From: Eudorina sp. 2006-703-Eu-15
Lineage: Eukaryota > Chlorophyta > Chlorophyceae > Chlamydomonadales > Volvocaceae
Length of the DNA stretch: 64,000 nt
Assembly (NCBI GenBank): GCA_003117195.1
Contig: BDSI01000034.1
Coordinates: 1,007,956 to 1,071,955 of the forward strand
Reading direction: 5' to 3'
Shown: in pieces, positions 14,564 through 64,000 of the stretch
Layout of the letters: every line of letters begins with the position of its first letter
Position numbering within the stretch: position 1 is the first letter of the stretch
Notes under the pieces: model-generated
Told to the model about the DNA's origin: nothing
Databases searched by the model: none
The model's input: only the letters and a program-made list of their open reading frames with translations
Translations under genes and position numbers: made by a program

Positions 14564-14735
14564 CCGTCCTGTCTGTGAGGTTGGCGTTGCTTGGCTTCCT
14601 TTCCTTCTGGTTGGCGCCTCTGGGGCTCGGTTGCGGTGTGGTGGTCTTCGCTTGCCGTCTGGCCTTCTTCCCGGCTTGCTGCTTGGTCTGCTTCCGTCCC
14701 TTTGTCCTTGTAACGTCCCTCTCAGAAAAATAAAA
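14564..14735 (+). mobile_element. LINE 3'-end fragment (5'-truncated)
   Basis: About 160 bp of the LINE 3'UTR ending CTCAG, followed by a decayed tail AAAAATAAAA, inserted in a satellite unit. It is the leftmost LINE piece and marks the edge of the island. Confidence 0.85.
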
Positions 14736-14782
14736 CCCTGACAACCTGCCAGTGGCTGGGGTCGATCCTGGGACCTCCCGGA
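14736..14782 (-). mobile_element. SINE internal fragment
   Basis: 47 bp matching the middle of the SINE at 14826-15230 (CTGACAACYTGCCAGTGGCTGGGGTCGATCC). It abuts the tail of the preceding LINE fragment. Confidence 0.6.
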
Positions 14783-14825
14783 GAAATCTAAAACAATATC
14801 CCATTGCATGAAAATAAACAAATAA

Positions 14826-15230
14826 TTTTTTTTTATTTCTGAAGGAACCAGGACTCGGGACGGGGTGCCTTTCTTTATGTTGTCTGGCGGACCTCTGATG
14901 CAGCCACTACTCCCCGAGCGGCTAGCGGGCCGGGCTTCTGGGCGTCTCCACAGGCCAGCTGGATGACTTAAGATGGGTGAGAATCTTGTAAACCTCCAGA
15001 CGGGACAGGGACGGGTGGGCACCCTCCTTCTCGTCACACCCCTGACAACTTGCCAGTGGCTGGGGTCGATCCCGGGATCTCCCAGGGGAATTGCGAAGTT
15101 TCCCTGTTGACAGCCAAAGCGCCTCATTGTCACCTTCTGGGGGTGCTGGATAGTTCGTATTGTCCCCGGTAAGACTTCAACCCGGGTCACCAGGGCCATT
15201 TGTGCCTTAACATTTGGTGTCGGAACTTAC
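14826..15230 (-). mobile_element. tRNA-headed SINE, near full length
   Basis: About 405 bp, nearly identical to 20213-19-style copy at 20213-20619. Read on the - strand it opens with GTAAGTTC, which pairs with GAACTTAC about 80 nt later like an acceptor stem. It contains a hairpin (CCAAATGTT..AACATTTGG) and a Pol III B-box-like GGGTTCAAGTCC (here with a substitution). It ends CTGGTTCCTTCAG followed by a poly(A) tract, seen as T's at 14826-14838. The 3' end resembles the LINE end (CCTCTCAG-A), suggesting that the LINE enzyme mobilises it. Confidence 0.7.
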
Positions 15231-15549
15231 CAGGATTTTATATTCAATCCAATATACAACAAAACACACACTGTCACAACCCCTTCACGGCTCCGAAAAC
15301 CGTCATTACCCCTCGTCATCCCTGCGCGCCCCCGGGCCCATCCTCAGCCCCCCCTCGGCCCCCGCCCCCCCCCCCGACCTCCCAGACCCCCAAACTTCAT
15401 AATGCTCGAAACCCCATCCTGATTTCCGATGCGATCTGATCGTGCGGCATGAAGATCGCGAATGGAGAAAAGCTCATTTGTGCCAAACAAATCGTATTTA
15501 ACAATCAATCCAATATACACCAAAACACACAACACAGGTCAGGTGACAC

Positions 15550-15584: not shown

Positions 15585-17057
15585 TTGTTTTTTTTTTTGG
15601 GGTTTTGTTGTTTGTTGGTGGGTGGGTTTTCTTTGGCCTTCCGTCTCGCCTGGTGGCCTGGAGTAGGAGGTGCGACCTTGTTGTGCCGTTTTGCCGCTTT
15701 GGGAGCTTTTCTCTCCCTCTGCCGCCCTGTCCCTGTCCCCGTCCTGTCTGTGAGGTTGGCGTTGCTTGGTTCCCTTTCCTTCTGGTTGGTGCCTCTTTTT
15801 TTTTCTGAGAGGGACGTTACAAGGACAAAGGGACGGAAGCAGACCAAGCAGCAAGCCGGGAAGAAGGCCAGACGGCAAGCGAAGACCACCACACCGCAAC
15901 CGAGCCCCAGAGGCACCAACCCGAAGGAAAGGGAACCAAGCAACGCCAACCTCACAGACAGGACGGGGACAGGGACAGGGCGGCAGAGGGAGAGAAAAGC
16001 TCCCAAAGCGGCAAAACGGCACAACAAGGCCGCACCTCCTACTCCAGGCCACCAGGCGAGACGGAAGGCCAAAGACGACCCACCCACCAACAAACAACAA
16101 AAAGCAAAAAAAAGAAAAGAAAAAACAGCTACAAAACCAGAACACAGCAACGAGGCAAACACCACCCAAAGAAGCAGGGCAACACCCAACTGCAGCAGCC
16201 ACAGAAGACACAAAGCAAACAACGGAAGCAACAACCTGCAGCAGCCCCAGAGAACACCGGAACTCTCAACAGAAGGAGACACACCAGACCGCCCAACAGA
16301 AGGAACCGAAACCCCCCAACCCCCAAAAACAGACCCCCCAGGCTCGCACGAACCCAAAAGCACCGAGGTGCCGCCCAAGGCACAGGAGGCCAGGGCACGA
16401 GCACACCAAGGCGCCAAGCACGTCACGGCTGAACCCGGGTGCCGCTCGGTAGGGTCTCGAGCACGAGCACACCGCAGGGCCGCACAACAGGGCGCCGCTC
16501 CACCAGCCACGCCAACAGACGCCGGCCCGGCAGAGCACGAGCACGCCACGAGCAAGGGAAACGTCCAGGGCTGGTACCCTGCGGGGCGCAGCAAGCAGGC
16601 ACACCCCTCCCTCTCCAACCCAACCCTGGAGGCCCTCACCCCTACAACACTGGGCCCCCTAGACCCCAGCACTCTCGAGGCCCCCCCACAAAGCCCCTCT
16701 GAAACCCCCTTTCACTACTGCCCTACACAAACCGGAAGCGGCTCACACAACAAAACCCCCCTGAGCTGGGCTGAGCTGATGCTGATGCTGTAGCTGCGAG
16801 CTGAAACTAATCTGACATTACTGCGGCGGCAGCCTGTGGGGCTGGCACAGGGTGGGCCAGGGACAGATGGACCCGCAGCCTGGGTGCCTGCCCTTCGGCA
16901 CGCTCGACAGAGCACAGGACACCTTCATGCGCCCATGAGGCTTCGAAGGCGTGGGGCTCGGTTGCGGTGTGGTGGTCTTCGCTTGCCGTCTGGCCTTCTT
17001 CCCGGCTTGCTGCTTGGTCTGCTTCCGTCCCTTTGTCCTTGTAACGTCCCTCTCAGA
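15585..17057 (+). mobile_element. LINE 3'UTR fragment, split by a - strand LINE
   Basis: LINE 3'UTR runs from 15585 to GGTGCCTC (15795) and resumes in register as TGGGGCTCGG at 16952, ending CTCAGA at 17057. Its poly(A) continues at 18048-18056 after the palindromic element. The exact resumption shows that the piece between is a later insertion with no target duplication beyond the T-run. Confidence 0.85.
15796..16951 (-). mobile_element. 5'-truncated LINE nested in a + strand LINE
   Basis: T9 (15796-15804), the complete 3'UTR (to about 16820), and about 130 bp of the ORF2 C-terminus ending in the codons around TTCGAAGGCG. Left and right host sequence join with at most 1 bp overlap, so this is a blunt insertion. 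Confidence 0.85.
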
Positions 17058-18047
17058 CAAGTAGGGGTCGGCTTCCTCGAAGCCGGAAAAGGGCGGGGCC
17101 CCCAATAATCCGTACAGGCCGCTTGCTTTAGAAAGAAAACTCTATTACCGCGCAACAGTGTGAGAGAGTGAAAGGTTACCATTGGGGGTGTCGTTGATGT
17201 TGAAGGTGGATTGGCGTGCATAGATTCACCAAGCCCAAACACGTCGGCAGCCCCGAAACCATCCTGCAGTACGCGCCGCCGGCGACGGCGGTCACCGTAT
17301 CGGCACTACCTCTGCACTACCACATCCGTCTGTCAAGCAGATGATCACAAAGCAAGCTTGAAGCATCCTTGTTTTGCCGTGAAACTGTAGTTGTTTGGTC
17401 CGTCGGCAGGCATGCAACCCTTCAGTTGCACGCCCGCAGCAGACGTGAACCTCTAAAGTTTGCTATCAATAGTTACATAGCAAATGTAAGACAAAAACAG
17501 GGTGCGAAAAAGCCGCGGTGAGACCCGGACTTTGGGCCATCGGAACTGGAGAACTCGTTGGCACTCGGTACGCTATCCCTTTGCATCTTGAAACTTTGGT
17601 TCAATACATATTGTTGAGTTGTATTTATCTGGCAAGACAGAAAGACAAATCTTGATGTTGGTGGTATCTTGATGTTCAAACATCAGAACACTATCGAAGT
17701 TCAATTTAGCACGCGCCGCCCATTCCTAATCCAAGTATTCATCACGCGGCACCTGTTGCAACAAACATGAGCGCGAGAGGCGTTGGGTGGATGTTGACTC
17801 GGGTCCATGGAGACCGCGGAGCTTTACTTTGACCGTTTGTGCGCAAATAATTTTTTTCAGCCAAACCAAGAATACCTTGCAATAGAGGACAATTAATATG
17901 ACAAACATTGCGAATTAGTTTAGCGGATAATGAACGTTTTGCCGTTACCGGACACACGGACACAGGGACACACGGACGGACACACGGACATGGGCAATCC
18001 TAGGGGGCGGGGCCCCCCGAACGCGCTTCGCGCTGGGGCCCCGCCCC
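17058..18047. mobile_element. 0.99 kb element with GC-rich palindromic ends, copy 2
   Basis: Same termini and interior as 13293-14310. It lies inside a LINE poly(A) tract: CTCAGA on the left, then nine A's (18048-18056) on the right. As in copy 1, exactly one A precedes the element. Hence this element moved after the LINE inserted, and A-runs may be its target. Confidence 0.65.
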
Positions 18048-18066
18048 AAAAAAAAAGACCTACGAC

Positions 18067-18457
18067 CATGTACAGCAGTGACAGCCCCACGGGCCTGTTC
18101 CGAGTTGGGGAGGTGGACCCCGCTGCCCAGGACCTGCTACTCAGCCACCTTCAGAGGACCGCCAGACAACATAAAGAAAGGCACCCCGTCCCGAGTCCTG
18201 GTTCCTTCAGAAAAAAAAAAAAAACCTTCGCCGGCGACTGCCAGACGACCTGCGGGACAGCTCTGATGGCGCAGGGGCCCAGGGGGAACTCCAGTTGGCG
18301 GAACTCATGGTGGCCCTGGCTTCATGCCAGAATGGCAAGGCCCCGGGTTCGGATGGTGTCCCGTTGCTCCCGTACGAGGTCTATCGTGTCCTGTGGGAAT
18401 AGCTGGGCCATCTACCTTCATCAATCACCCCCCCGCAGGGCCGCTGCAAGGGAGCCC
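18067..18457 (+). pseudogene. LINE ORF2 fragment with a large internal deletion
   Basis: Encodes MYSSDSPTGLFRVGEV through the start of the reverse transcriptase (KAPGSDGV region, with a small insertion at about 18362). At about 18400 it then jumps to the ORF2 C-terminal part (CTGGGCCATCTACCTTCATCAA). Both parents carry CAGCTGGG at the join, so a microhomology deletion of about 2.4 kb is likely. A SINE (18152-18224) interrupts it. Confidence 0.75.
18152..18224 (+). mobile_element. 5'-truncated SINE inside LINE ORF2
   Basis: About 59 bp of the SINE 3' end plus A14, flanked by CCTT (ACCTT if one tail A is counted). Comparison with intact ORF2 (near 43595) gives the empty site. Confidence 0.8.
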
Positions 18458-18536: not shown

Positions 18537-18544
18537 GGGAGCCC

Positions 18545-20212: not shown

Positions 20213-20619
20213 TTTTTTTTTTTCTGAAGGAACCAGGACTCGGGACGGGGTGCCTTTCTTTATGTTGTCTGGCGGTCCTCTGATGCTGCCACTACTCCAC
20301 GAGCGGCTAGCAGGCCGGGCTTCTGGGCGTCTCCACAGGCCAGCTGGATGACTTAGGATGGGTGAGAGTCTTGTAAACCTCCAGACGGGACAGGGACGGG
20401 TGGGCACCCTCCTTCTCGTCACACCCCTGACAACTTGCCAGTGGCTGGGGTCGATCCCAGGACCTCCCGGGGGGAATTGCGAGGTTTCCCTGTTGCCAGC
20501 CAAAGCGCCTCATTGTCACCTTCTGGGGGTGCTGGTAAGTTCGTATCGTCCCCGGTAGGACTTGAACCCGGGTCACCCGGGCCAAATGTTGTGCCTTAAC
20601 ATTTGGTGTCGGAACTTAC
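20213..20619 (-). mobile_element. tRNA-headed SINE, full copy
   Basis: 407 bp including T11. B-box GGTTCAAGTCC is the complement of 20559-20569. The acceptor-like ends GGTAAGTTC / GAACTTACC pair. It interrupts ORF2 at GGGCCC/CTGGAGC; the uninterrupted form is at about 30085. The target duplication is 2 bp at most. Confidence 0.75.
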
Positions 20620-21020: not shown

Positions 21021-22521
21021 GGCCCCTCGACAGCTGGGCCATCTACCTTCATCAACCACCACCCCGCAGGGCCGCTGCAAGGGAGCCCGCCGGACCTACC
21101 AGATCAGCTGGCCCCCGTGGACCCACCCGCCCCGCCGGACCTACCTGACCTGCCAGACCCACCTGACCCGCCTGAACCGCCCGACCCGCCGGGCTTGGGT
21201 GCACCCACGGCGGCCCAGAAGCACAAGACCTGGCAGCGGCTGTGGGACAGCCCGGCCAGCAACCGGGCCAAGGCCCTGGTGTGGCGTCTGCAGCATGCAC
21301 GGCTCCCGTGCGGCCTGTACCTCGCAACCAAAGGCCGGCCGGACCGCGCCGCCTGCAGCCACCCACCCTGCCAACAGCCACAGCAGCAGCCACAGCAGCA
21401 GCAGCCGCGGCGATGGTGGCCAGAACTGTGCATGGACGGCTTGACCCACATCTTTGTGGCCTGCCCGGCGTACCAGGGTGCTCGTGAGTGGCTGGTGGCT
21501 CTCTGGAGGGCCATCACCGGGGGGCCCGGCCCCCCAATGATGAGCGTTGAACTGCTGCCCGCCATTCGGGCCACCTGGCTGTGGGCCGTCTGGTGCCACC
21601 ACCAAGCCGCTGACACCGCGCCCTGCCCCTCCGAAGCGGTCGTCACCCAGGTGGTCAGCGAGCTCCAACGGCTCATGTGGGCGCATTTCCGGATGGCAGC
21701 GTTGCCCGACGACACCATGGCTGGGTTGCCACTCTCTCACATCACCGCCCAGCTGAAGACAGCTCCGCTGGACGCCTTCGAAGCCTCATGGGCGCATGAA
21801 GGTGTCCTGTGCTCTGTCGAGCGTGCCGAAGGGCAGGCGCCCAGGCTGCGGGTCCATCTGTCCCTGGCCCACCCTATGCCAGCCCCACAGGCCGACGCCG
21901 CAGTAATGTCAGATAAGTTTCAGCTCGCAGCTACAGCTACAGTGTCAGCTCAGCCCAGCTCAGGGGGATTTGTTGTGTGAGCAGTTTCCGGTTTGTGTAG
22001 GGCAGTAGTGGAAGGGGGGTTCTTTTCGGCTTTGTGGGGGGGCCTCGAAGGTGCTGGGGTCTAGGGGGGCCAGTGTTGTAGGGGTGAGGGCCTCCAGTGT
22101 TGGGTTGGCGAGGGAGGGGTGTGCCTGCTTGCTGCGCCCCGCAGGGTACCAGCCCTGGACGTTTCCCTTGCTCGTGGCGTGCTCGTGCTCTGCCGGGCCG
22201 GCGTCTGTTGGCGTGGCTGGCAGAGCGGCGCCCTGTTGTGCGGCCCTGCGGTGTGCTCGTGCTCGAGACCCTACCGCGCGGCACCCGGGTTCGGCCGTGA
22301 CGTGCTTGGCGCCTTGGTGTGCTCGTGCCCTGGCCTCCTATGCCTTGGGCGGCACCTCGTTGCTTTTGGGTTCGTGCGAGCCTGGGGGGTCTGTTTTTCG
22401 GGGGTGGGGGGTTTGGGTTCCTTCTGTTGGGCGGTCTGGTGTGTCTCCTTCTGTTGGGAGTTCCGGTGTTCTCTGGGGCTGCTGCAGGTTGTTGCTTCCG
22501 TTGCTTGCTTTGTGTCTTCTG

Positions 22522-25500
22522 TTTTTTTTTTTTTTTTTTTTTTTTCTGAGAGGGACGTTACAAGGACAAAGGGACGGAAGCAGACCAAGCAGCAAGCCGG
22601 GAAGAAGGCCAGACGGCAAGCAAAGACCACCACACCGCAACCGAGCCCCAGAGGCACCAACCAGAAGGAAAGGGAACCAAGCAACGCCAACCTCACAGAC
22701 AGGACGGGGACAGGGACAGGGCGGCAGAGGGAGAGAAAAGCTCCCAAAGCGGCAAAACGGCACAACAAGGCCGCACCTCCTACTCCAGGCCAACAGGCGA
22801 GACGGAAGGCCAAAGACGACCCACCCACCAACAAACAACAAAAGACAAAAAAAAAGAAAAGAAAAACAGCTACAAAACCAGAACACAGCAACGAGGCAAA
22901 CACTACCCAAAGAAGCAGGGCAACACCCAACTGCAGCAGCCACAGAAGACACAAAGCAAACAAACGGAAGCAACAACCTGCAGCAGCCCCAGGGAACACC
23001 GGAACTCCCAACAGAAGGAGACACACCAGACCGCCCAACCGAAGGAACCCAAACCCCCACCCCCCAAAAACAGACCCCCCAGGCTCGCACGAACCCAAAA
23101 GCAACGAGGTGCCGCCCAAGGCACAGGAGGCCAGGGCACGAGCACACCAAGGCGCCAAGCACGTCACGGCTGAACCCGGGTGCCGCTCGGTAGGGTCTCG
23201 AGCACGAGCACACCGCAGGGCCGCACAACAGGGCGCCGCTCCACCAGCCACGCCAACAGACGCCGGCCCGGCAGAGCACGAGCACGCCACGAGCAAGGGA
23301 AACGTCTAGGGCTGGTACCCTGCGGGGCGCAGCAAGCAGGCACACCCCTCCCTCGCCAACCCAACCCTGGAGGCCCTCACCCCTACAACACTGGCCCCCT
23401 AGACCCCAGCACCCTCGAGGCCCCCACACAAAGCCGAACTGAAACCCCCTTTCACTACTGCCCTACACAAACCGGAAACGGCTCACACAACAAACCCCCC
23501 TGAGCTGGGCTGAGCTGATGCTGTAGCTGTAGCTGCGAGCTGAAACTAATCTGACATTACTTTTTTTTTTTTTTTTTTTTTTTCTGAGAGGGACGTTACA
23601 AGGACAAAGGGACGGAAGCAGACCAAGCAGCAAGCCGGGAAGAAGGCCAGACGGCAAGCAAAGACCACCACACCGCAACCGAGCCCCAGAGGCACCAACC
23701 AGAAGGAAAGGGAACCAAGCAACGCCAACCTCACAGACAGGACGGGGACAGGGACAGGGCGGCAGAGGGAGAGAAAAGCTCCCAAAGCGGCAAAACGGCA
23801 CAACAAGGCCGCACCTCCTACTCCAGGCCAACAGGCGAGACGGAAGGCCAAAGACGACCCACCCACCAACAAACAACAAAAGACAAAAAAAAGAAAAGAA
23901 AAACAGCTACAAAACCAGAACACAGCAACGAGGCAAACACTACCCAAAGAAGCAGGGCAACACCCAACTGCAGCAGCCACAGAAGACACAAAGCAAACAA
24001 ACGGAAGCAACAACCTGCAGCAGCCCCAGGGAACACCGGAACTCCCAACAGAAGGAGACACACCAGACCGCCCAACCGAAGGAACCCAAACCCCCCACCC
24101 CCCAAAAACAGACCCCCCAGGCTCGCACGAACCCAAAAGCAACGAGGTGCCGCCCAAGGCACAGGAGGCCAGGGCACGAGCACACCAAGGCGCCAAGCAC
24201 GTCACGGCTGAACCCGGGTGCCGCTCGGTAGGGTCTCGAGCACGAGCACACCGCAGGGCCGCACAACAGGGCGCCGCTCCACCAGCCACGCCAACAGACG
24301 CCGGCCCGGCAGAGCACGAGCACGCCACGAGCAAGGGAAACGTCTAGGGCTGGTACCCTGCGGGGCGCAGCAAGCAGGCACACCCCTCCCTCGCCAACCC
24401 AACCCTGGAGGCCCTCACCCCTACAACACTGGCCCCCCTAGACCCCAGCACCCTCGAGGCCCCCACACAAAGCCGAACTGAAACCCCCTGTGGCGGCAGC
24501 CTGTGGGGCTGGCACAGGGTGGGCCAGGGACAGCTGGACCCGCAGCCTGGGTGCCTGCCCTTCGGCACGCTCGACAGAGCACAGGACACCGTCATGCGCC
24601 CACGAGGCTGCGAAGGCGTCCAGCGGAGCTGTCTTCAGCTGGGCGGTGATGTGTGAGAGTGGCAAGCCAGCCATGGTGTCGTCGGGCAACGCTGCCATCC
24701 GGAAATGCGCCCACATGAGCCGTTGGAGCTCGCTGACCACCTGGGTGACGACCGCTTCAGAGGGGCAGGGCTCGGTGTCAGCGGCTTGGTGGTGGCACCA
24801 GACGGCCCACAGCCAGGTGGCCCGAAGGGCGGTCCAGAGGGTTTGCAGGCCCGGGCTGGTTGGGTACTGGCCCCAGGCGGCGGCCCAGTCTCCCAGCAGC
24901 AGTTCAACGCTCATCATTGGGGGGCCGGGCCCCCCGGTGATGGCCCCCCAGAGAGCCACCAGCCACTCACGAGCACCCTGGTACGCCGGGCAGGCCACAA
25001 AGATGTGGGTCAAGCTGTCCAGGCACGGTTCTGGCCGCCATCGCCGTGGCTGCTGCTGCTGTGGCTGCTGCTGTGGCTGCTGCTGTGGCTGTTGGCAGGG
25101 TGGGTGGCTGCAGGCGGCGCGGTCTGGCCGGCCTTTGGTTGCTAGGTACAGGCCGCACGGGAGCCGTGCATGGTGCAGCCGCCACACCAGGGCCTTGGCC
25201 CGGTTGCTGGCCGGGCTGTCCCACAGCCGCTGCCAGGTCTTGTGCTTCTGGGCCGCCGTGGGTGCACCCAAGCCCGGCGGGTCTGGCGGTTCAGGCGGGT
25301 CAGGTGGGTCTGGCAGGTCAGGTGGGTCCGGCGGGGCGGGTGGGTCCACAGGGGCCAGCTGATCTGGTAGGTCCGGCGGGCTCCCTTGCAGCGGCCCTGC
25401 GGGGTGGTGGTTGATGAAGGTAGATGGCCCAGCTGTCGAGGGGCCTGCCCCTGGGTCCCCCGGCTGTGAGGACGCCGCTGAGTTGCCGGCAGCTGAGTGA

Positions 25501-26784
25501 CACTGGCTGTGAACGGGGAGAGTGGGTTGCAACGTGGCCGCATCCAGGCTGCAGGCTGGACTGGGTGCATCCTGAACCAGCTGCTATGGCTGGGGGCCCG
25601 GTTGGCTGCATGCTGCCGTCTCCATTCCTCCTCCAGGACTGTGAGTGCACTGCGATTACCCGGGAGTGTAGGCCACGCAGCGGGCGTCAGGGGTCCTGGG
25701 CCATGGTCTCCCAAAGCCAGGCGTGCAGCTGTGAGACGGCGGCGGGTTTCGCAGACTGTGTAGTGTACCAGTGGCAGGGCGCCGTGGCCATGACTGAGGG
25801 GGTGGCACTGCACCTCGCTCCAGGGGCCCAGGAGCTGGTTCTCGGTTGGCCACAAGGCCGGCCGCTCAGCCGGTGGGGCAGCCTGGTACGCCAGCCGCTC
25901 CGCCAGGGACCAGAAGCGGCGCGGCTTTTTGCCGGGTAGGACACAGGCCGCCAGCCACGCTTCAGGGGCCGCTGCCCCGGCCGCTGTTGGTTCAGGGGTG
26001 ACGAGGCGGCCGCTGGGCAGGGCAGCCAGTAGAGCTCCGGACGGGCTGCGGACCCAGTTGCTGTCCAGTGACACTTGCCAATTTGCTGCTTCAGGAAGTT
26101 CTGCGGTCAGGAGGCCACCTGGCAGGAGCTGGTGCCAGTCTGGAGGCACGGCAGCCAGCACAGCCTGCAGTTGGGGGTCATGCTGGGCCAGGGCTGGGGC
26201 TGCACGCAGGGCTGCCACGGTGCACGGTGCGTCGATGGGTCCGCCCTCAGGCATACCGGGGGGCTGGAATGGCTGTCCTGTCACTGGGTCCCGAAGGGCT
26301 GCATTGTAGTACAGCGGCTCATGCAGCAGCGCCCGCGCGTCAGTGCCCTCAGGGTAAGGCAGCCGGCAGGGCTGTGAGGCCCGGAAGGATGTCACCAGGC
26401 TGGCCAGGTACGGGGGCAGGTTTGCCGGTGGGTCCACCGTCCCATACACCCAACCCCAGCCGGTGGTCCCCCGGGGGGCCCAGTTAGCGAAGAGGGAGCG
26501 CATGATCAGCTTCCAGGGCTGCCGGCCTGGTTGGGCTAACTGCGCCAGGGTCTTGCCATGCAGCGCTGCAAGGAAGGAGTCAAGGTCAATGTGACCAACC
26601 CCGCCACACTCGTGGTCTTGGTATGCCACCACTGGATCCGGCTTCAGCAGTGCACGACCATTGCACACCAGGGTAGCATCTTCAGGCAGCAACGACCAGG
26701 CTGTGAAGCCGTCGATGCACTTCCGCAGCGCTGCCAGCTGTGGTGGGGAGGGCTGGACAAAGGAGAAGTGGAAGGCAAGGGCAT
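22522..26784 (-). mobile_element. 5'-truncated LINE (3'UTR plus ORF2 C-terminal half), interrupted
   Basis: T24 (22522-22545), 3'UTR to ACATTAC (23560), then, after the nested insertion, TGTGGCGG (24489) and ORF2 up to about residue 850. The host site CTTCTG/TGGCTGC is the same as that used by the full-length copy at 37702. The ORF2 part (24489-26784) is largely open but frameshifted at the G-run near 25458, where five G's replace the six seen in the open copy at 34560. Confidence 0.85.
23561..24488 (-). mobile_element. LINE 3'UTR insertion nested in the stop-codon region
   Basis: T23 plus about 905 bp of 3'UTR placed between ACATTAC and TGTGGCGG of the older - strand LINE, without target duplication. 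Confidence 0.85.
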
Positions 26785-26841
26785 TTCTCCTTTGTCCAGC
26801 CCTCCCCACCACAGCTGGCAGCGCTGCGGAAGTGCATCGAC
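26711..26841. repeat. Perfect 57 bp inverted repeat (fold-back) in LINE ORF2
   Basis: Arms 26711-26767 and 26785-26841 are exact reverse complements around a 17 bp spacer. The - strand ORF2 turns back on itself here and then continues as + strand LINE. Confidence 0.95.
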
Positions 26842-27262
26842 AGCATCTGTGGCTGCTGCAGTTGGGTGTTGCCCTGCTTCTTTGGGTAGTGTTTGCCTCG
26901 TTGCTGTGTTCTGGTTTTGTAGCTGTTTTTCTTTTCTTTTTTTTGTTTTTTGTTGTTTGTTGGTGGGTGGGTCGTCTTTGGCCTTCCGTCTCGCCTGGTG
27001 GCCTGGAGTAGGAGGTGCGGCCTTGTTGTGCCGTTTTGCCGCATTGGGAGCTTTTTCTCTCCCTCTGCCGCCCTGTCCCTGTCCCCGTCCTGTCTGTGAG
27101 GTTGGCGTTGCTTGGTTCCCTTTCCTTCTGGTTGGTGCCTCTGGGGCTCGGTTGCGGTGTGGTGGTCTTTGCTTGCCGTCTGGCCTTCTTCCCGGCTTGC
27201 TGCTTGGTCTGCTTCCGTCCCTTTGTCCTTGTAACGTCCCTCTCAGAAAAAAAAAAAAAAAA
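26785..27262 (+). mobile_element. LINE fragment: 57 bp of ORF2 joined to 3'UTR, with A16
   Basis: After the fold-back arm the sequence jumps to TGTGGCTGCTGCAG of the 3'UTR and runs to CTCAG plus A16 (27247-27262). Confidence 0.8.
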
Positions 27263-28300
27263 GCTACAGCATCAGCTCAGCCCAGCTCAGGGGGGTTTTG
27301 TTGTGTGAGCCGCTTCCGGTTTGTGTTTTTTTTTTTGACAAAGGCAGTGTCGGGCAGTGAAAGGGGGTTTCAGTTCGGCTTTGTGGGGGGGCCTCGAGGG
27401 TGCTTTTTTTTTTTTTGGTGCTGGGGTCTAGGGGGGCCAGGGTTGTAGGGGTGAGGGCCTCCAGGGTTGGGTTGGCAAGGGAGGGGTGTGCCTGTTTGCT
27501 GCGCCCCGCAGGGTACCAGCCCTGGACGTTTCCCTTGCTCGTGGCGTGCTCGTGCTCTGCCGGGCCGGCGTCTGTTGGCGTGGCTGGTGGAGCGGCGCCC
27601 TGTTGTGCGGCCCTGCGGTGTGCTCGTGCTCGAGACCCTACCGAGCGGCACCCGGGTTCGGCCGTGACGTGCTTGGTACCTTGGTGTGCTCGTGCCCTGG
27701 CCTCCTGTGCCTTGGGCGGCACCTCGGTGCTTTTGGGTTCGTGCGAGCCTGGGGGGTGTGTTTTTGGGGGGTGGGGGGTTGGGTTCCTTCTGTTGGGCGG
27801 TCTGGTGTGTCCCCTTCTGTTTGGGAGTTCCGGTGTTCCCTTGGGCTGCTGCGGGTTTGTTGCTTCCGTTGTTTGTTTTGTGTCTTCTGTGGCTGCTGCA
27901 GTTCGGTGTTGCCCTGCTTCTTTGGGTAGTGTTTGCCTCGTTGCTGTGTTCTGGTTTTGTAGCCGTTTTTCTTTTCTTTTTTTGTTTTTGTTGTTTGTTG
28001 GTGGGTGGGTCGTCTTTGGCCTTCCGTCTCGCCTGTTGGCCTGGAGTAGGAGGTGCGGCCTTGTTGTGCCGTTTTGCCGCTTTGGGAGCTTTTCTCTCCC
28101 TCTGCCGCCCTGTCCCTGTCCCCGTCCTGTCTGTGAGGTTGGCGTTGCTTGGTTCCCTTTCCTTCTGGTTGGTGCCTCTGGGGCTCGGTTGCGGTGTGGT
28201 GGTCTTTGCTTGCCGTCTGGCCTTCTTCCCGGCTTGCTGCTTGGTCTGCTTCCGTCCCTTTGTCCTTGTAACGTCCCTCTCAGAAAAAAAAAAAAAAAAA
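27263..28300 (+). mobile_element. LINE 3'UTR with two poly(T) micro-insertions and A17 tail
   Basis: A nearly whole 3'UTR of the subtype with TTTGGGAGTTCC. Inside it, 27326-27346 (T11 plus GACAAAGGCA, duplication GTGT) and 27404-27416 (T13 alone, duplication GGTGC) are inserted. The tail is 28284-28300. Confidence 0.85.
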
Positions 28301-28946
28301 GGCCAGACGGCAAGCAAAGACCACCACACCGCAACCGAGCCCCAGAGGCACCAACCAGAAGGAAAGGGAACCAAGCAACGCCAACCTCACAGACAGGACG
28401 GGGACAGGGACAGGGCGGCAGAGGGAGAGAAAAGCTCCCAAAGCGGCAAAACGGCACAACAAGGCCGCACCTCCTACTCCAGGCCAACAGGCGAGACGGA
28501 AGGCCAAAGACGACCCACCCACCAACAAACAACAAAAGACAAAAAAAGAAAAGAAAAACAGCTACAAAACCAGAACACAGCAACGAGGCAAACACTACCC
28601 AAAGAAGCAGGGCAACACCCAACTGCAGCAGCCACAGAAGACACAAAGCAAACAAACGGAAGCAACAACCTGCCCACCGAAGGGCCCAACCGCCCAACCG
28701 AAGGAACCCAACCCCCCACCCCCCATAAACAAACCCCCCAGGCTCGCACGAACCCAAAAGCAACGAGGTGCCGCCCAAGGCACAGGAGGCCAGGGCACGA
28801 GCACACCAAGGCGCCAAGCACGTCACGGCCGAACCCGGGTGCCGCTCGGTAGGGTCTCGAGCACGAGCACACCGCAGGGCCGCACAACAGGGCGCCGCTC
28901 CACCAGCCACGCCAACAGACGCCGGCCCGGCAGAGCACGAGCACGC
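28301..28946 (-). mobile_element. Inverted LINE 3'UTR fragment without tail
   Basis: Begins GGCCAGACGG, about 70 nt in from the LINE end, directly after the A17 of the preceding + copy, and ends GAGCACGAGCACGC. Confidence 0.8.
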
Positions 28947-31432
28947 CTCCCTGGGGAGGAGCCGCCCCGCCACCTTGGGGTACCGCTCACCACTGACACC
29001 ACCCTGGCGGCCAACCTCTGCTACGCCAGCCGTATCCAACGGCTGAACAACATCGGGCAGGTGTGGCGGCGGCATGGCCTCAGTTTCGTCGGCAGGGTCC
29101 ACGTGGCCAAGCAGGTATTGGGCAATGCCCTTGCCTTCCACTTCTCCTTTGTCCAGCCCTCCCCACCCCAGCTGGCAGCGCTGCGGAAGTGCATCGACGG
29201 CTTCACAGCCTGGTCGTTGCTGCCTGAAGATGCTACCCTGGTGTGCAATGGTCGTGCACTGCTGAAGCCGGATCCAGTGGTGGCATGCCAAGACCACGAG
29301 TGTGGCGGGGTTGGCCACATTGACTTTTTGACTCCTTCCTTGCAGCGCTGCATGGCAAGACCCTAGCGCAGTTAGCCCAACCAGGCCGGCAGCCCTGGAA
29401 GCTGATCATGCGCTCCCTCTTCGCTAACTGGGCCCCCGGAGGACCGCCGGCTGGGGTTGGGTGTATGGGACGGTGGACCCACCGGCAAACCTGCCCCCGC
29501 ACCTGGCCAGCCTGGTGACATCCTTCCGGGCCTCACAGCCCTGCCGGCTGCCTTACCCTGAGGGCACTGACGCGCGGGCGCTGCTGCATGAGCCGCTGTA
29601 CTACAATGCAGCCCTTCGGGACCCAGTGACAGGACAGCCATTCCAGCCCCCCGGTATGCCTGAGGGCGGACCCATCGACGCACCGTGCACCGTGGCAGCC
29701 CTGCGTGCAGCCCCAGCCCTGGCCCAGCGTGACCCCCAACTGCAGGCTGTGCTGGCTGTCGTGCCTCCAGACTGGCACCAGCTCCTGCCAGGTGGCCTCC
29801 TGACCGCAGAACTTCCTGAAGCAGCAAATTGGCAAGTGTCACTGGACAGCAACTGGGTCCGCAGCCCGTCCGGCGCTCTACTGGCTGCCCTGCCCAGCGG
29901 CCGCCTCGTCACCCCTGAACCAACAGCGGCCGGGGCAGCGGCCCCTGAAGCGTGGCTGGCGGCCTGTGTCCTACCAGGCAAAAAGCCGCGCCGCTTCTGG
30001 TCCCTGGCGGAGCGGCTGGCGTACCAGGCTGCCCCACCGGCTGAGCGGCCGGCCTTGTGGCCAACCGAGAACCAGCTCCTGGGCCCCTGGAGCGAGGTGC
30101 AGTGCCACCCCCTCAGTCATGGCCACGGCGCCCTGCCACTGGTACACTACACAGTCTGTGAAACCCGCCGCCGTCTCACAGCTGCACGCCTGGCTTTGGG
30201 AGACCATGGCCCAGGACCCCTGACGCCCGCTGCGTGGCCTACGCTCCCGGGTAATCGCAGTGCACTCACAGTCCTGGAGGAATGGAGACGGCAGCATGCA
30301 GCCAACCGGGCCCCCAGCCATAGCAGCTGGTTCAGGATGCACCCAGTCCAGCCTGCAGCCTGGATGCGGCCACGTTGCAACCCACTCTCCCCGTTCACAG
30401 CCAGTGTCACTCAGCTGCCGGCAACTCAGCGGCGTCCTCACAGCCGGGGGACCCAGGGGCAGGCCCCTCGACAGCTGGGCCATCTACCTTCATCAACCAC
30501 CACCCCGCAGGGCCGCTGCAAGGGAGCCCGCCGGACCTACCAGATCAGCTGGCCCCCGTGGACCCACCCGCCCCGCCGGACCCACCTGACCTGCCAGACC
30601 CACCTGACCCGCCTGAACCGCCAGACCCGCCGGGCTTGGGTGCACCCACGGCGGCCCAGAAGCACAAGACCTGGCAGCGGCTGTGGGACAGCCCGGCCAG
30701 CAACCGGGCCAAGGCCCTGGTGTGGCGTCTGCAGCATGCACGGCTCCCGTGCGGCCTGTACCTCGCAACCAAAGGCCGGCCGGACCGCGCCGCCTGCAGC
30801 CACCCACCCTGCCAACAGCCACAGCAGCAGCCACAGCAGCAGCCACAGCAGCAGCAGCCACGGCGATGGCGGCCAGAACCGTGCCTGGACAGCTTGACCC
30901 ACATCTTTGTGGCCTGCCCGGCGTACCAGGGTGCTCGTGAGTGGCTGGTGGCTCTCTGGGGGGCCATCACCGGGGGCCCGGCCCCCCAATGATGAGCGTT
31001 GAACTGCTGCTGGGAGACTGGGCCGCCGCCTGGGGCCAGTACCCAACCAGCCCGGGCCTGCAAACCCTCTGGACCGCCCTTCGGGCCACCTGGCTGTGGG
31101 CCGTCTGGTGCCACCACCAAGCCGCTGACACCGAGCCCTGCCCCTCTGAAGCGGTCGTCACCCAGGTGGTCAGCGAGCTCCAACGGCTCATGTGGGCGCA
31201 TTTCCGGATGGCAGCGTTGCCCGACGACACCATGGCTGGCTTGCCACTCTCACACATCACCGCCCAGCTGAAGACAGCTCCGCTGGACGCCTTCGAAGCC
31301 TCGTGGGCGCATGAAGGTGTCCTGTGCTCTGTCGAGCGTGCCGAAGGGCAGGCGCCCAGGCTGCGGGTCCAGCTGTCCCTGGCCCACCCTGTGCCAGCCC
31401 CACAGGCTGCCGCCACAGTAATGTCAGATTAG
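28947..31432 (+). pseudogene. LINE ORF2, C-terminal half
   Basis: From the LGVPLTT motif after the reverse transcriptase to the normal stop TAG (31430-31432). The longest intact stretch is 29461-30894. It is broken by a frameshift in GACTTTTTGACTCC (about 29325), one near 29433, a G5/G6 change near 30450, and another in GGGGGCCCGGCC (about 30975) that cuts the frame just after the zinc-knuckle. The CSHPPC-(Q-rich)-HIFVAC segment lies at about 30795-30918. Confidence 0.8.
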
Positions 31433-47384: not shown

Positions 47385-48098
47385 TGCTGCTGTTGCTGTC
47401 ACTGCTGCTGCTGTTGCTACCGCTGCTGCTGCGGCTGTTGCTGCTGCTGTTGCTGCTGCTGCGGCGGCTGCTGTTGCTGCTGTTGCTGTCGTGGCTGTCG
47501 CTGCGGCTGTGCACCCGCCACACTGCGCGGCGGTTGCTGGGCCCCCAACTCTGCTGTGAGGGACCCGTGGCAGGCAGCTCAAAGGGGGACTTGCGCTCCA
47601 CCCGTGAGAGCCCTGGTGCTGCTAAAGCTGCCGGCTGAGAGCACTGGCAGGCAAGGTAAAAACACAACAACAGCAGGACAACACCCCGCAAGCACCCCAA
47701 ACACAGACCAAAGCCCCAAAACAGCCACCAAACCCCGACCCCTAGCAAACCACAAAACAAACCCCGCCCTGGGAAACCCGCCCCAGGCCCTCCTGACAGA
47801 GCTAGACCAGGCAAGCGGGGGCCCCTACAGGGCGCAGCACACCAGAGTCGACGAGGGCTCCAGAGCAGCTCCGTCCACAGCAGTTGCCACAAAGGGCAAC
47901 ACCGAAGAGCTAAGATTCGCCAGCAGTAGGCCGGTCAGGTTGCGCCCAGCAGCTCCAAGTTTGCCGGCGCCATGAGAGCCGCACCGCAGGAAATACTGGA
48001 CGACAGTGAGCAGCCCAGATCTTGACCCAAATGGAAGAGCGGGTAATACTGTTGTAAACTGGATAGGAACGGAGCCTGGAAACTGGTGCTATGATATA
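47385..48098 (-). promoter_or_regulatory. 5'UTR / internal promoter region of the full-length LINE
   Basis: About 0.7 kb before the first ORF1 ATG, found only once in the window because all other copies are 5'-truncated. Inferred to hold the internal promoter; no motif is recognised. Confidence 0.5.
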
Positions 48099-48480
48099 GG
48101 CTGCTGCAGTTGGGTGTTGCCCTGCTTCTTTGGGTAGTGTTTGCCTCGTTGCTGTGTTCTGGTTTTGTAGCTGTTTTTCTTTTCTTTTATTTGTCTTTTG
48201 TTGTTTGTTGGTGGGTGGGTCGTCTTTGGCCTTCCGTCTCGCCTGTTGGCCTGGAGTAGGAGGTGGTTCCCTTTCCTTCTGGTTGGTGCCTCTGGGGCTC
48301 GGTTGTGGTGTGGTGGTCTTTGCTTGCCGTCTGGCCTTCTTCCCGGCTTGCTGTTTGGTCTGCTTCCGTCCCTTTGTCCTTGTAACGTCCCTCTCAGAAA
48401 AAAAAAAAAAAAAAGGTGCGGCCTTGTTGTGCCGTTTTGCCGCTTTGGGAGCTTTTCTCTCCCTCTTTTTTTGCTGTAGC
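48099..48480 (+). mobile_element. Continuation of the LINE 3'UTR that hosts the full-length copy
   Basis: Resumes at GGCTGCTGCAG and runs to CTCCCTC (about 48465), followed by a T-run and GCTGTAGC of mixed origin. It is split by the + strand micro-insertion 48265-48414. Confidence 0.8.
48265..48414 (+). mobile_element. LINE 3'-end insertion (150 bp with A17)
   Basis: Inserted after GGAGTAGGAGGT; GGT (AGGT with a tail A) repeats at 48415. Same orientation as its host. Confidence 0.85.
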
Positions 48481-56857: not shown

Positions 56858-58563
56858 TTGTTGTGTGAGCCGCTTCCGGTTTGTGTAGGGCAGTAGTGAA
56901 AGGGGGTTTCAGTTCGGCGTTGTGGGGGGGCCTCGAGGGTGCTGGGGTCTAGGGGGCCAGGGTTGTAGGGGTGAGGGCCTCCAGGGTTGGGTTGGCGAGG
57001 GAGGGGTGTGCCTGTTTGCTGCGCCCCGCAGGGTACCAGCCCTGGACGTTTCCCTTGCTCATGGCGTGCTCGTGCTCTGCCGGGCCGGCGTCTGTTTGCG
57101 TGGCTGGTGGAGCGGCGCCCTGTTGTGCGGCCCTGCGGTGTGCTCGTGCTCGAGACCCTTTTTTTTTTTTCTGAGAGGGACGTTACAAGGACAAAGGGAC
57201 GGAAGCAGACAAAGCAGCAAGCCGGGAAGAAGGCCAGACGGCAAGCAAAGACCACCACACCGCAACCGAGCCCCAGAGGCACCAACCAGAAGGAAAGGGA
57301 ACCAAACAACGCCAACCTCACAGACAGGACGGGGACAGGGACAGGGCGGGTCGTCTGGGTGGGTCGTCTTTGGCCTTCCGTCTCGCCTGGTGGCCTGGAG
57401 TAGGAGGTGCGGCCTTGTTGTGCCGTTTTGCCGCTTTGGGAGCTTTTCTCTCCCTCTGCCGCCCTGTCCCTGTCCCCGTCCTGTCTGTGAGGTTGGCGTT
57501 GTTTGGTTCCCTTTCCTTCTGGTTGGTGCCTCTGGGGCTCGGTTGCGGTGTGGTGGTCTTTGCTTGCCGTCTGGCCTTCTTCCCGGCTTGCTGCTTTGTC
57601 TGCTTCCGTCCCTTTGTCCTTGTAACGTCCCTCTCAGAAAAAAAAAAAAAAAAAGGGCGGCAGAGGGAGAGAAAAACTCCCAAAGCGGCAAAACGGCACA
57701 ACAAGGCCGCTTGTTGTGTGAGCCGCTTCCGGTTTGTGTAGGGCAGTAGTGAAAGGGGGTTTCAGTTCGGCGTTGTGGGGGGGCCTCGAGGGTGCTGGGG
57801 TCTAGGGGGGCCAGGGTTGTAGGGGTGAGGGCCTCCAGGGTTGGGTTGGCGAGGGAGGGGTGTGCCTGTTTGCTGCGCCCCGCAGGGTACCAGCCCTGGA
57901 CGTTTCCCTTGCTCATGGCGTGCTCGTGCTCTGCCGGGCCGGCGTCTGTTTGTGTGGCTGGTGGAGCGGCGCCCTGTTGTGCGGCCCTGCGGTGTGCTCG
58001 TGCTCGAGACCCTTTTTTTTTTTCTGAGAGGGACGTTACAAGGACAAAGGGACGGAAGCAGACAAAGCAGCAAGCCGGGAAGAAGGCCAGACGGCAAGCA
58101 AAGACCACCACACCGCAACCGAGCCCCAGAGGCACCAACCAGAAGGAAAGGGAACCAAACAACGCCAACCTCACAGACAGGACGGGGACAGGGACAGGGC
58201 GGGTCGTCTGGGTGGGTCGTCTTTGGCCTTCCGTCTCGCCTGGTGGCCTGGAGTAGGAGGTGCGGCCTTGTTGTGCCGTTTTGCCGCTTTGGGAGCTTTT
58301 CTCTCCCTCTGCCGCCCTGTCCCTGTCCCCGTCCTGTCTGTGAGGTTGGCGTTGTTTGGTTCCCTTTCCTTCTGGTTGGTGCCTCTGGGGCTCGGTTGCG
58401 GTGTGGTGGTCTTTGCTTGCCGTCTGGCCTTCTTCCCGGCTTGCTGCTTTGTCTGCTTCCGTCCCTTTGTCCTTGTAACGTCCCTCTCAGAAAAAAAAAA
58501 AAAAAAAGGGCGGCAGAGGGAGAGAAAAAGCTCCCAATGCGGCAAAACGGCACAACAAGGCCG
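56858..58563. repeat. Tandem duplication, two units of about 854 bp, each a LINE nest
   Basis: Units start at TTGTTGTGTGAGCC (56858 and 57711). Each holds a + strand 3'UTR start (to CGAGACCC), a - strand 3' end (T from 57159 / 58013), and inside it a + strand 3' end with A17 (57638-57654 / 58491-58507) flanked by GGGCGG. Only a few bases differ, so the whole nest was copied after it formed. Confidence 0.85.
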
Positions 58564-59391: not shown

Positions 59392-59396
59392 GGCAA

Positions 59397-59891: not shown

Positions 59892-62310
59892 TTTTTTTTT
59901 TTCTGAGAGGGACGTTACAAGGACAAAGGGACGGAAGCAGACCAAGCAGCAAGCCGGGAAGAAGGCCAGACGGCAAGCAAAGACCACCACACCGCAACCG
60001 AGCCCCAGAGGCACCAACCAGAAGGAAAGGGAACCAAGCAACGCCAACCTCACAGACAGGACGGGGACAGGGACAGGGCGGCAGAGGGAGAGAAAAGCTC
60101 CCAAAGCGGCAAAACGGCACAACAAGGCCGCACCTCCTACTCCAGGCCGCCAGGCGAGACGGAAGGCCAAAGACGACCCACCCACCAACAAACAACAAAA
60201 AGCAAAAAAAAAGAAAAGAAAAAACAGCTACAAAACCAGAACACAGCAACGAGGCAAACACCACCCAAAGAAGCAGGGCAACACCCAACTGCAGCAGCCA
60301 CAGAAGACACAAAGCAAACAACGGAAGCAACAACCTGCAGCAGCCCCAGAGAACACCGGAACTCTCAACAGAAGGAGACACACCAGACCGCCCAACAGAA
60401 GGAACCGAAACCCCCCACCCCCCAAAAACAGACCCCCCAGGCTCGCACGAACCCAAAAGCACCGAGGTGCCGCCCAAGGCACAGGAGGCCAGGACACGAG
60501 CACACCAAGGCGCCAAGCACGTCACGGCTGAACCCGGGTGCCGCTCGGTAGGGTCTCGAGCACGAGCACACCGCAGGGCCGCACAACAGGGCGCCGCTCC
60601 ACCAGCCACGCCAACAGACGCCGGCCCGGCAGAGCACGGCAGGCTGCGGGTCCATCTGTCCCTGGCCCACCCTGTGCCAGCCCCACAGGCCGACGCCGCA
60701 GTAATGTCAGATTAGTTTAAGCTCGCAGCTACAGCTACAGCGTCAGCTCAGCCCAGCTCAGGGGATTTGTTGTGTGAGCAGTTTCCGGTTTGTGTAGGGC
60801 AGTAGTGAAAGGGGGGTTCTTTTCGGCTTTGTGGGGGGGCCTCGAGGGTGCTGGGGTCTAGGGGGGCCAGTGTTGTAGGGGTGAGGGCCTCCAGTGTTGG
60901 GTTGGCGAGGGAGGGGTGTGCCTGCTTGCTGCGCCCGCAGGGTGCCAGCCCTGGACGTTTCCCTTGCTCGTGGCGTGCTCGTGCTCTGCCGGGCCGGCGT
61001 CTGTTGGCGTGGCTGGCAGAGCGGCGCCCTGTTGTGCGGCCCTGCGGTGTGCTCGTGCTCGAGACCCTACCGCGCGGCACCCAGGTTCGGCCGTGACGTG
61101 CTTGGCGCCTTGGTGTGCTCGTGCCCTGGCCTCCTATGCCTTGGCGGCACCTCGGTGCTTTTGGGTTCGTGCGAGCCTGGGGGTCTGTTTTTCGGGGGTG
61201 GGGGGTTTGGGTTCCTTCTGTTGGGCGGTCTGGTGTGTCTCCTTCTGTTGGGAGTTCCGGTGTTCTCTGGGGCTGCTGCAGGTTGTTGCTTCCGTTGCTT
61301 GCTTTGTGTCTTCTGTGGCTGCTGCAGTTGGGTGTTGCCCTGCTTCTTTGGGTAGTGTTTGCCTCGTTGCTGTGTTCTGGTTTTGTAGCTGTTTTTCTTT
61401 TCTTTTTTTTGTTTTTTGTTGTTTGTTGTGGGTGGGTCGTCTTTGGCCTTCCGTCTCGCCTGGTGGCCTGGAGTAGGAGGTGCGGCCTTGTTGTGCCGTT
61501 TTGCCGCATTGGGAGCTTTTTCTCTCCCTCTGCCGCCCTGTCCCTGTCCCCGTCCTGTCTGTGAGGTTGGCGTTGCTTGTTCCCTTTCCTTCTGGTTGGT
61601 GCCTCTGGGGCTCGGTTGCGGTGTGGTGGTCTTTGCTTGCCGTCTGGCCTTCTTCCCGGCTTGCTGCTTGGTCTGCTTCCGTCCCTTTGTCTTGTAACGT
61701 CCCTCTCAGAAAAAAAAAAAAAAAAAAGAGCACGAGCACGCCACGAGCAAGGGAAACGTCCAGGGCTGGTACCCTGCGGGGCGCAGCAAGCAGGCACACC
61801 CCTCCCTCTCCAACCCAACCCTGGAGGCCCTCACCCCTACAACACTGGGCCCCTAGACCCCAGCACTCTCGAGGCCCCCCACAAAGCCCCTCTGAAACCC
61901 CCTTTCACTACTGCCCTACACAAACCGGAAGCGGCTCACACAACAAAACCCCCTGAGCTGGCTGAGCTGATGCTGATGCTGTAGCTGCGAGCTGAAACTA
62001 ATCTGACATTACTGCGGCGGCAGCTGTGGGGCTGGCACAGGGTGGGCCAGGGACAGATGGACCCGCAGCCTGGGTGCCTGCCCTTCGGCACGCTCGACAG
62101 AGCACAGGACACCTTCATGCGCCCATGAGGCTTCGAAGGCGTCAGCGGAGCTGTCTTCAGCTGGGCGGTGATGTGAGAGAGTGGCAACCCAGCCATGGTG
62201 TCGTCGGGCAACGCTGCCATCCGGAAATGCGCCCACATGAGCCGTTGGAGCTCGCTGACCACCTGGGTGATGACCGCTTCAGAGGGGCAGGGCTCGGTGT
62301 CAGCAGCTTG
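59892..62310 (-). mobile_element. 5'-truncated LINE split by a + strand LINE
   Basis: T11 (59892-59902) and 3'UTR to CAGAGCACG (60638). After the insert it resumes at AGCACGCC (61735) and reaches the ORF2 C-terminus at about 62310. There the sequence flips to + strand ORF2 (GCTTGG/AGACCATGG). Confidence 0.85.
60639..61727 (+). mobile_element. 5'-truncated LINE nested in a - strand LINE, 7 bp duplication
   Basis: 76 bp of the ORF2 end, the 3'UTR and A18 (61710-61727). GAGCACG is repeated at 60632-60638 and 61728-61734, and single in uninterrupted copies. Confidence 0.9.
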
Positions 62311-63909
62311 GAGACCATGGCCCAGGACCCCTGACGCCCGCTGCGTGGCCTACACTCCCGGGTAATCGCAGTGCACTCACGGTCCTGGAGGAGGAATGGA
62401 GACGGCAGCATGCAGCCAATCGGGCCCCCAGCCGTAGCAGCTGGTTCAGGATGCACCCAGTCCAGCCTGCAGCCTGGATGCGGCCACGTTGCAACCCACT
62501 CTCCTCGTTCACAGCCAGTGTCACTCAGCTGCCGGCAACTCAGCGGCGTCCTCACAGCCGGGGGACCCAGGGGCAGGCCCCTCGACAGCTGGGCCATCTA
62601 CCTTCATCAACCACCCCCCGCAGGGCCGCTGCAAGGGAGCCCGCCGGACCTACCAGATCAGCTGGCCCCGTGGACCACCCGCCCTGCCGGACCCACCTGA
62701 CCTGCCGGACCCACCTGACCCGCCTGAACCGCCAGACCCGCCGGGCTTGGGTGCACCCACGGCGGCCCAGAAGCACAAGACCTGGCAGCGGCTGTGGGAC
62801 AGCCCGGCCAGCAACCGGCCAAGGCCCTGGTGTGGCGTCTGCAGCATGCACGGCTCCCGTGCGGCCTTTTTTTTTTTTGCCCGACGACACCATGGCTGGG
62901 TTGCCACTCTCTCACATCACCGCCCAGCTGAAGACAGCTCCGCTGGACGCTTTCGAAGCCTCATGGGCGCATGAAGGTGTCCTGTGCTCTGTCGAGCGTG
63001 CCGAAGGGCAGGCACCCAGGCTGCGGGTCCATCTGTCCCTGGCCCACCTGTGCCAGCCCCACAGGCTGCCGCCGCCGTAATGTCAGATTAGTTTCAGCTC
63101 GCAGCTACAGCATCAGCATCAGCTCAGCCCAGCTCAGGGGGGTTTGGTGTGTGAGCCGCTTCCGGTTTGTGTCGGGCAGTAGTGAAAGGGGGTTTCAGTT
63201 CGGCTTGTGGGGGGCCTCGAGGGTGCTGGGTCTAGGGGGGCCAGGGTTGTAGGGGTGAGGGCCTCCAGGGTTGGGTTGGCGAGGGAGGGGTGTGCCTGTT
63301 TGCTGCGCCCCGCAGGGTACCAGCCCTGGACGTTTCCCTTGCTCGTGGCGTGCTCGTGCTCTGCCGGGCCGGCGTCTGTTGGCGTGGCTGGTGGAGCGGC
63401 GCCCTGTTGTGCGGCCCTGCGGTGTGCTCGTGCTCGAGACCCTACCGAGCGGCACCCGGGTTTGGCCGTGACGTGCTTGGTACCTTGGTGTGCTCGTGCC
63501 CTGGCCTCCTGTGCCTTGGGCGGCACCTCGGTGCTTTTGGGTTCGTGCGAGCCTGGGGGGTGTGTATTTGGGGGGGGGGGGTTGGGTTCCTTCTGTTGGG
63601 CGGTCTGGTGTGTCCCCTTCTGTTTGGGAGTTCCGGTGTTCCCTTGGCTGCTGCAGGTTTGTTGCTTCCGTTGTTTGTTTTGTGTCTTCTGTGGCTGCTG
63701 CAGTTGGGTGTTGCCCTGCTTCTTTGGTAGTGTTTGCCTCGTTGCTGTGTTCTGGTTTGTAGCCGTTTTTCTTTTCTTTTTTGTTTTTGTTGTTTGTTGG
63801 TGGGTGGGTCGTCTTTGGCCTTCCGTCTCGCCTGGTGGCCTGGAGTAGGAGGTGCGGCCTTGTTGTGCCGTTTTGCCGCTTTGGGAGCTTTTCTCTCCTT
63901 CTGCCGCCC
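62311..63909 (+). pseudogene. LINE ORF2 C-terminal part and 3'UTR
   Basis: ORF2 from GDHGPGPL; T12 (62867-62878) replaces the segment between GCGGCC and GCCCGACGAC. Stop TAG is near 63090, and the 3'UTR runs to GCCC (63909). Many single-base deletions lie in homopolymers. Confidence 0.8.
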
Positions 63910-63988
63910 TTTTTTTTTTTTTTCTGAGAGGGACGTTACAAGGACAAGGGACGGAAGCAGACCAAGCAGCAAGCCGGGAAGAAGGCCA
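63910..63988 (-). mobile_element. 79 bp LINE 3'-end insertion
   Basis: T14 plus about 65 nt. GCCC at 63906-63909 repeats at 63989-63992, after which the host 3'UTR continues to the window end. Confidence 0.85.
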
Positions 63989-64000
63989 GCCCTGTCCCTG

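Follow-up and report, generated by a model that had tools for sequence, protein, structure and literature searches.

A self-nested LINE island as a candidate centromere in the volvocine green alga Eudorina

The window analysed here is a stretch of 64,000 nucleotides from the green alga Eudorina sp. 2006-703-Eu-15 (contig BDSI01000034.1, positions 1,007,956 to 1,071,955), and most of it, from 14564 to 64000, is an island of one family of long interspersed nuclear element (LINE) whose copies are nested in one another. As the reference for this family, hereafter F, we used the window's own full-length copy, which lies on the minus strand and comprises 9054 bp (48098-41311 joined to 39967-37702); a nested copy between the two segments was excluded. 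Matches to F covered 95.2% of 14564-64000 and 98.8% of 18066-64000, in agreement with the initial annotation, which had described nearly every base from 14.6 kb onward as belonging to one LINE family, its SINE or poly(A) debris. The larger gaps consist of a dispersed 1-kb repeat (17061-18065), two copies of a short interspersed nuclear element (SINE; 20213-20618 and 14826-15229) and other sequence around 14736-15549. The annotation had also let the island run to the window end. We found that the family does reach that far, but that the edge lies about 4.1 kb past the window. The contig, C34 (C-numbers denote contigs of the Eudorina assembly searched), ends 2,227 bp beyond the window, and the island fills that remainder too; traced through overlapping small contigs, its right edge falls at about window-equivalent 68.1 kb, after which the DNA is free of LINE and SINE. 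One of these contigs, C1350, overlaps the end of C34 and extends it by about 1.9 kb of LINE and SINE, then a (GTGCG)n array, then about 7 kb without either element. The total size of the island is about 53-54 kb.

The full-length copy (37702-48098, minus strand; 5' end at 48098, poly(A) end at 37702) sits within a plus-strand copy at host position F8638/8639. It has a GC content of about 67%, a 3' poly(A) and two open reading frames, ORF1 and ORF2. The first 1223 codons of ORF2 (41311-44980, minus strand) encode an APE-type endonuclease (amino acids 13-245; PF03372, E=1.6e-14) and a reverse transcriptase (RT; amino acids 568-815; PF00078, E=5.7e-28), and a zf-RVT match in the C-terminal part of ORF2 was weak, below cut-off. 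The closest solved relatives of ORF2 are L1 ORF2 proteins (E=5.9e-38), with R2 at E=2.1e-11. The ORF1 region (44977-47384, minus strand) ends in an overlap of the ORF1 stop with the ORF2 start, as ATGA. Its frame is broken in the window copy and in both copies read on C71, and is a single frame of 811 amino acids in the copy on C198, for which Pfam gave no match. LINEs of the L1 clade in general have an APE endonuclease, an RT, poly(A), 5' truncation and 5' inversion, all of which are common to the Eudorina family; with an RT nearest to that of L1 and with target-site duplications, the element is an L1-type LINE. When a 391-amino-acid stretch of its RT was compared with the genome (106 of 538 candidates scored), many copies were 90-100% identical and some older relatives 57-90% identical, every one of these relatives on a family-bearing contig; the next L1s were only 36-37% identical (C10, C111, C115, C8 and C60).

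Within the window, 27 LINE 3' termini were recognised by motif plus poly(A), 14 on the plus and 13 on the minus strand, and a few short or tail-less ends raise the total to near 30. Another family piece directly abuts 24 of the 27 (17 antisense, 7 sense); the other three have no such neighbour. Two nests of three layers could be resolved. In the first, a plus-strand host (21559-22522) carries at F8638 a copy of F5723-9054 (22522-26785, minus strand), which is itself split at F8018/8019 and holds a third-layer copy of F8129-9054 (23561-24489, minus strand). At the 5' junction of the second-layer copy lies an inverted 66-bp piece, F5738-5803 (26782-26847, plus strand), which resembles the 5' inversions produced in L1 by twin priming. 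In the second nest, the host (36467-37702 and 48099-48265) contains the full-length copy, which in turn contains a 5'-truncated copy of F7718-9054 (39968-41310, minus strand); this insert splits ORF2, and its flanks are in register with a duplication of about 4 bp. A reading of 39972-48098 as one element with a deletion was rejected, as the 930-bp "missing" part reveals the nested insert. A further copy, F7888-9043 (15796-16952, minus strand), sits at F8930 of a plus-strand host (15588-15796 and 16952-17060). The termini in both orientations, the hosts that are almost always the same element and the depth of up to three layers are thus as first described. Part of the LINE density, in addition, is tandem duplication of already nested blocks: 28296-36467 consists of two tandem copies of about 4.1 kb (28296-32408 and 32409-36467), and 56858-58507 of two of about 0.85 kb (56858-57710 and 57711-58507).

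We surveyed insertion junctions in the window from 14001, in its 2.2-kb continuation, and in 80 kb of C6, C19 and C22, where some stretches are partly island. Of the 74 3' ends found on these four contigs, 64 lead into sequence of the same family (42 antisense, 22 sense), and for the other 10 no family match begins within 14 bp. Beyond the insert the host resumes in register in 35 of the 64, with a median duplication of 4 bp (range -6 to 22). Stricter limits of -2 to 20 bp left 34 of the 64, whereas junction shuffles (300 runs) averaged 4.1 and reached at most 12; a few of the pairings may be due to chance. For the 29 without a matching second flank, rearrangement, the ends of the stretches or the pairing rule are responsible. 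An antisense preference of insertion was considered and rejected, since base composition alone predicts 65% antisense (P=1.0 for the observed 42:22). Family coverage climbs toward the 3' end of the element, and 3' ends make up most of the nested clusters.

At 47 of 51 distinct mapped sites (92%) an A precedes the junction in the host, and the next host base, which cannot be A by construction of the junction call, is G in 69% and C in 25%. Scattered along F, the sites track host coverage (2 close pairs versus 2.03 expected). Insertion thus resembles target-primed reverse transcription, poly(A)-primed, at loose A|G sites. We asked how such an element comes to strike its own copies. An endonuclease that recognises a site within the element would produce this pattern, and two observations favour it: when same-site inserts are counted separately unless they lie in duplicated blocks, a weak excess of coincident sites appears (5 pairs versus 1.7 expected, P=0.02), and F8637 and F8929 were each struck by two inserts with different truncation points. 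On the other side, the sites follow host coverage and share just an A|G/C step; with both strands of F considered, a candidate step of this kind turns up roughly every 4 bp, and so short a step should be common everywhere. As the A|G sites are loose and lie all over the host copy, homing cannot be put down to the cut motif, and we consider recognition of the element's own sequence very improbable. The proposal that the family homes to itself holds for place, the family being almost confined to islands, but not for one fixed site in the element.

Genome-wide counts cover 181,203,499 bases in 3,033 contigs (the shortest, C3033, of 10,003 bp) of what we treat as the Eudorina sp. female assembly. 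The exact 24-base LINE 3' end occurs at 596 places in these 181 Mb and its reversed control at none, which excludes chance. One hundred of the 596 were listed in contig order, completely for C1-C33 only. These 33 contigs hold 78 ends, 30 on C6, 25 on C19, 22 on C22 and one on C29, with none on the other 29; 77 of the 78 thus lie on three contigs, all but one of them in compact islands. All but two of the 100 listed ends, C6:1796254 and C29:654496, have a listed neighbour within 20 kb. Two classes of poly(A) length were listed in full, with 47 and 34 places (16 of the 81 shared with the 100 listed ends; beyond C34 these are samples). Here a second listed end is no more than 20 kb away for 70 of the 81 and no more than 40 kb away for 77; the remaining four (C144, C754, C1260 and C1687) are each the sole listed end on their contig. 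When RT matches are counted as well, 79 have a family feature no more than 20 kb away, but this neighbour may be the RT of the same copy. A table of ends and RT matches, with 109 of 115 RT matches (five at 36-37% identity, on the contigs named above, and one overlapping piece on C152 are omitted), places the family on 30 contigs. With gaps under 60 kb taken as one cluster, a rule informative on long contigs only, each of the ten island contigs longer than 500 kb carries a single cluster (C6, C19, C22, C34, C41, C46, C53, C56, C71 and C79). Island spans are roughly 25-125 kb. The even spread of copies that would have spoken against the initial proposal was not found: the family is nearly absent outside the islands. 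For the proposal's further expectation of one island per chromosome, the counts apply to contigs, of which the shorter ones say little.

Eight islands (on C6, C19, C22, C41, C46, C53, C71 and C79) are internal: on either side, at least 59 kb separates the contig end from the outermost family feature detected, a distant SINE on C41 being disregarded; that on C144 may be a ninth. On nine contigs (C34, C56, C101, C152, C190, C198, C209, C223 and C242) the island lies within 10 kb of one contig end. If such pieces pair up, these numbers suggest roughly 13-18 islands in the genome; a literature search yielded no chromosome number for Eudorina. The initial annotation had offered a subtelomere as an alternative, and Zepp was indeed first found at chromosome termini, in strain C-169 (PMC3446292). 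Accumulation of that kind is disfavoured because the eight islands are internal to their contigs. In addition, TTTAGGG x4 gave 263 matches, and the 100 listed (complete to about C1443) are mostly on small contigs; among them no array falls on an island contig, where only the single matches C19:157864 and C34:877762 occur, some 207 and 145 kb away from the respective islands. A fourfold TTTTAGGG had no match in the genome. We regard a subtelomeric origin as scarcely credible.

The core of this picture is already known. According to Craig et al. 2021 (PMC8226300), Eudorina has one ZeppL family in highly localized clusters, for which a role as in Chlamydomonas was suggested; the Chlamydomonas element, ZeppL-1_cRei, sits at the 15 mapped C. 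reinhardtii centromeres. The window family is like these in being L1-type, nested, 5'-truncated, clustered locally, rare elsewhere and separated by a deep gap from other L1s; its probable identity with the published Eudorina family is drawn from genome, class and distribution. The attribution of the locus to a green alga with a Zepp- or ZeppL-type nested island agrees with this. The ZeppL clusters of C. reinhardtii CC-5816 span 252-480 kb (PMC10030371), whereas the Eudorina islands are smaller, and functional mapping applies to C. reinhardtii only. In Coccomyxa subellipsoidea, Zepp, likewise a GC-rich LINE, forms nested clusters of 1.5-42.3 kb that are mostly chromosome-internal and apparently one per chromosome (Blanc et al. 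2012, PMC3446292). These resemble the Eudorina islands, but Coccomyxa belongs to another algal class, and its clusters are counted per chromosome, ours per contig. CENH3 work in Chlorella describes centromeres made largely of transposable elements (PMC11005252). Among the papers listed in our literature searches, none offered a functional map of centromeres in a multicellular volvocine alga.

We consider the window to hold one ZeppL-type LINE island of Eudorina that is most likely a centromere, with a rough probability of 0.7; the putative centromere function is consistent with the observations. The islands might instead be LINE-rich heterochromatin or safe havens without kinetochore function, the element inserting more widely and its outside copies being purged by selection. 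The tandem duplications indicate that the array grows by other means too, and a kinetochore function of the islands is putative. However, confinement is extreme (98 of 100 listed ends), and inserts in the islands have a median identity to F of 98.9%, which indicates that recent insertions also occur inside. Moreover, other LINEs of this genome persist widely: the 150 best-scoring RVT_1 matches, from mixed LINE families and without the window's own RT, lie on 104 contigs, a contrast that is not matched for copy number or age. We therefore judge islands of this kind unlikely. Besides that imperfect match, several points weigh against a centromere. Selection against insertions elsewhere may be what confines the family. 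Because the assembly consists of contigs, islands could be counted per contig and not per chromosome. The coincident insertion pairs (5 versus 1.7, P=0.02) make some site preference possible. Finally, there are strays: a solitary 4.1-kb copy, 95.8% identical, at C29:654496 (C29:654-659 kb, 2494-6633 of the extracted stretch), on a contig without an island; a second LINE piece of 147 bp at C29:730888, absent from the family table; the end at C6:1796254, 41 kb from its neighbours; and single LINE features on C178, C217, C322, C1246 and C1260. Separately, some other RT matches are grouped on single contigs (C36:970-1018 kb, C49:57-162 kb, C42:234-249 kb and C93:45-62 kb).

A SINE of about 405-430 bp with a poly(A) is seated inside the LINE copies. 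The window contains a copy of about 405 bp with poly(A) at LINE position F6685 (20213-20618, minus strand), a 5'-truncated 74-bp copy at F4510 (18151-18224, plus strand) and an older copy, 94% identical, at the left edge of the island (14826-15229, minus strand). Its exact 30-base 3' end occurs at 93 places, all listed. Of these, 73 are within 20 kb of a LINE feature; another 9 fall on C619, C1350 and C2014, contigs that consist of LINE-island DNA but are redundant with C34, so that 82 lie beside or within LINE islands. The remaining 11 comprise three at 28-46 kb from a LINE feature (C46, C71 and C322), six on the small contigs C969, C1357 and C1916, and two clear outliers (C41:175925 and C191:167148). 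When a second pattern was allowed as many as 3 mismatches, it gave 144 places; the 100 listed were all exact, 89 of them on contigs in the LINE table. We found no large SINE population within 10% of this 3' end, a search in which older copies could be missed. The SINE is thus nearly confined to the LINE islands.

As in the LINE, an A precedes the SINE junction in the host, at all 7 distinct mapped sites. A C follows at 6 of the 7, a base that LINE insertions show there at about 13 of 51 sites (P=0.004); over all distinct ends the counts are 9 of 16 for the SINE and 20 of 74 for the LINE (P=0.04). Because this base differs, a different helper LINE for the SINE is possible. The SINE and LINE tails share only TCAGA plus poly(A). 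The SINE head folds into a cloverleaf-like shape (z -4, mononucleotide shuffles) and contains GGTTCAAGTCC, seen by eye, which we take to be B-box-like. We make no firm tRNA call for the head: Rfam listed no tRNA match, and ARAGORN reported no tRNA in the window and only a doubtful intron-containing match in an extended SINE copy. The SINE may have been brought to the islands by the same or related LINE machinery. Since it shares almost no sequence with the LINE, a tentative reading is that the pair is confined to putative centromeres by an aim carried in trans, by an RT complex that might recognise centromeric chromatin and not the sequence of the element; we hold this possible, at somewhat less than even odds. 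A literature search on Eudorina and Chlamydomonas centromeres, LINEs and SINEs, at the level of the titles and abstract openings listed, found no report of an island-confined SINE, and Craig et al. 2021 (PMC8226300) do not use the word SINE in their main text.

Several features of the island surroundings were also recorded. The small contigs C619, C1350 and C2014 duplicate the island end of C34. A higher-order repeat was rejected here: aligned to the C34 end over 2.5-2.8 kb, they differ by 6, 2 and 1 mismatches and by 55, 37 and 52 gap bases, respectively, and because gap bases far outnumber mismatches, they look like indel-noisy redundant contigs, that is, assembly redundancy. Copy counts are inflated because such contigs are included. 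The pentanucleotide array immediately right of the island (19-569 of the extracted C1350 stretch) is a possible cause of the contig break. At other islands, no LINE match was found in the 10 kb left of that on C19, and each edge stretch on C22 has one short LINE end only. The 1-kb repeat lies at 17061-18065 and 13296-14315 of the window, gave 44 matches, with 40 of 1031 candidates scored, spread over more than 30 contigs, and is in tandem on C50 (819-850 kb) and C172; as it is dispersed, it was rejected as a pericentromeric marker. Left of the island, an (AC)33 microsatellite lies at 8062-8127. The region 1-14.5 kb has 41 listed open frames, 10 of which were compared with Pfam and gave no match.

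In sum, copies of a 9-kb L1-type LINE, mostly 5'-truncated, have repeatedly entered older copies of the element, in the manner of target-primed reverse transcription at loose sites with duplications of a few bp. Because loose target sites occur everywhere, homing would be set by something at the locus, most simply centromeric chromatin, or else a factor bound there, and not by the cut motif. New copies would renew the array and keep it centromeric, and the island-restricted SINE may be delivered there by the same or related machinery. To the known core, our results add the loose A|G insertion sites, the island-confined SINE and the right edge of an island. They provide a base-level anatomy of a putative centromere in a multicellular volvocine alga, in which the insertion-site readout speaks against the cut motif as the cause of homing, and in which a small SINE could serve as a simple reporter of how a retrotransposon finds the centromere.

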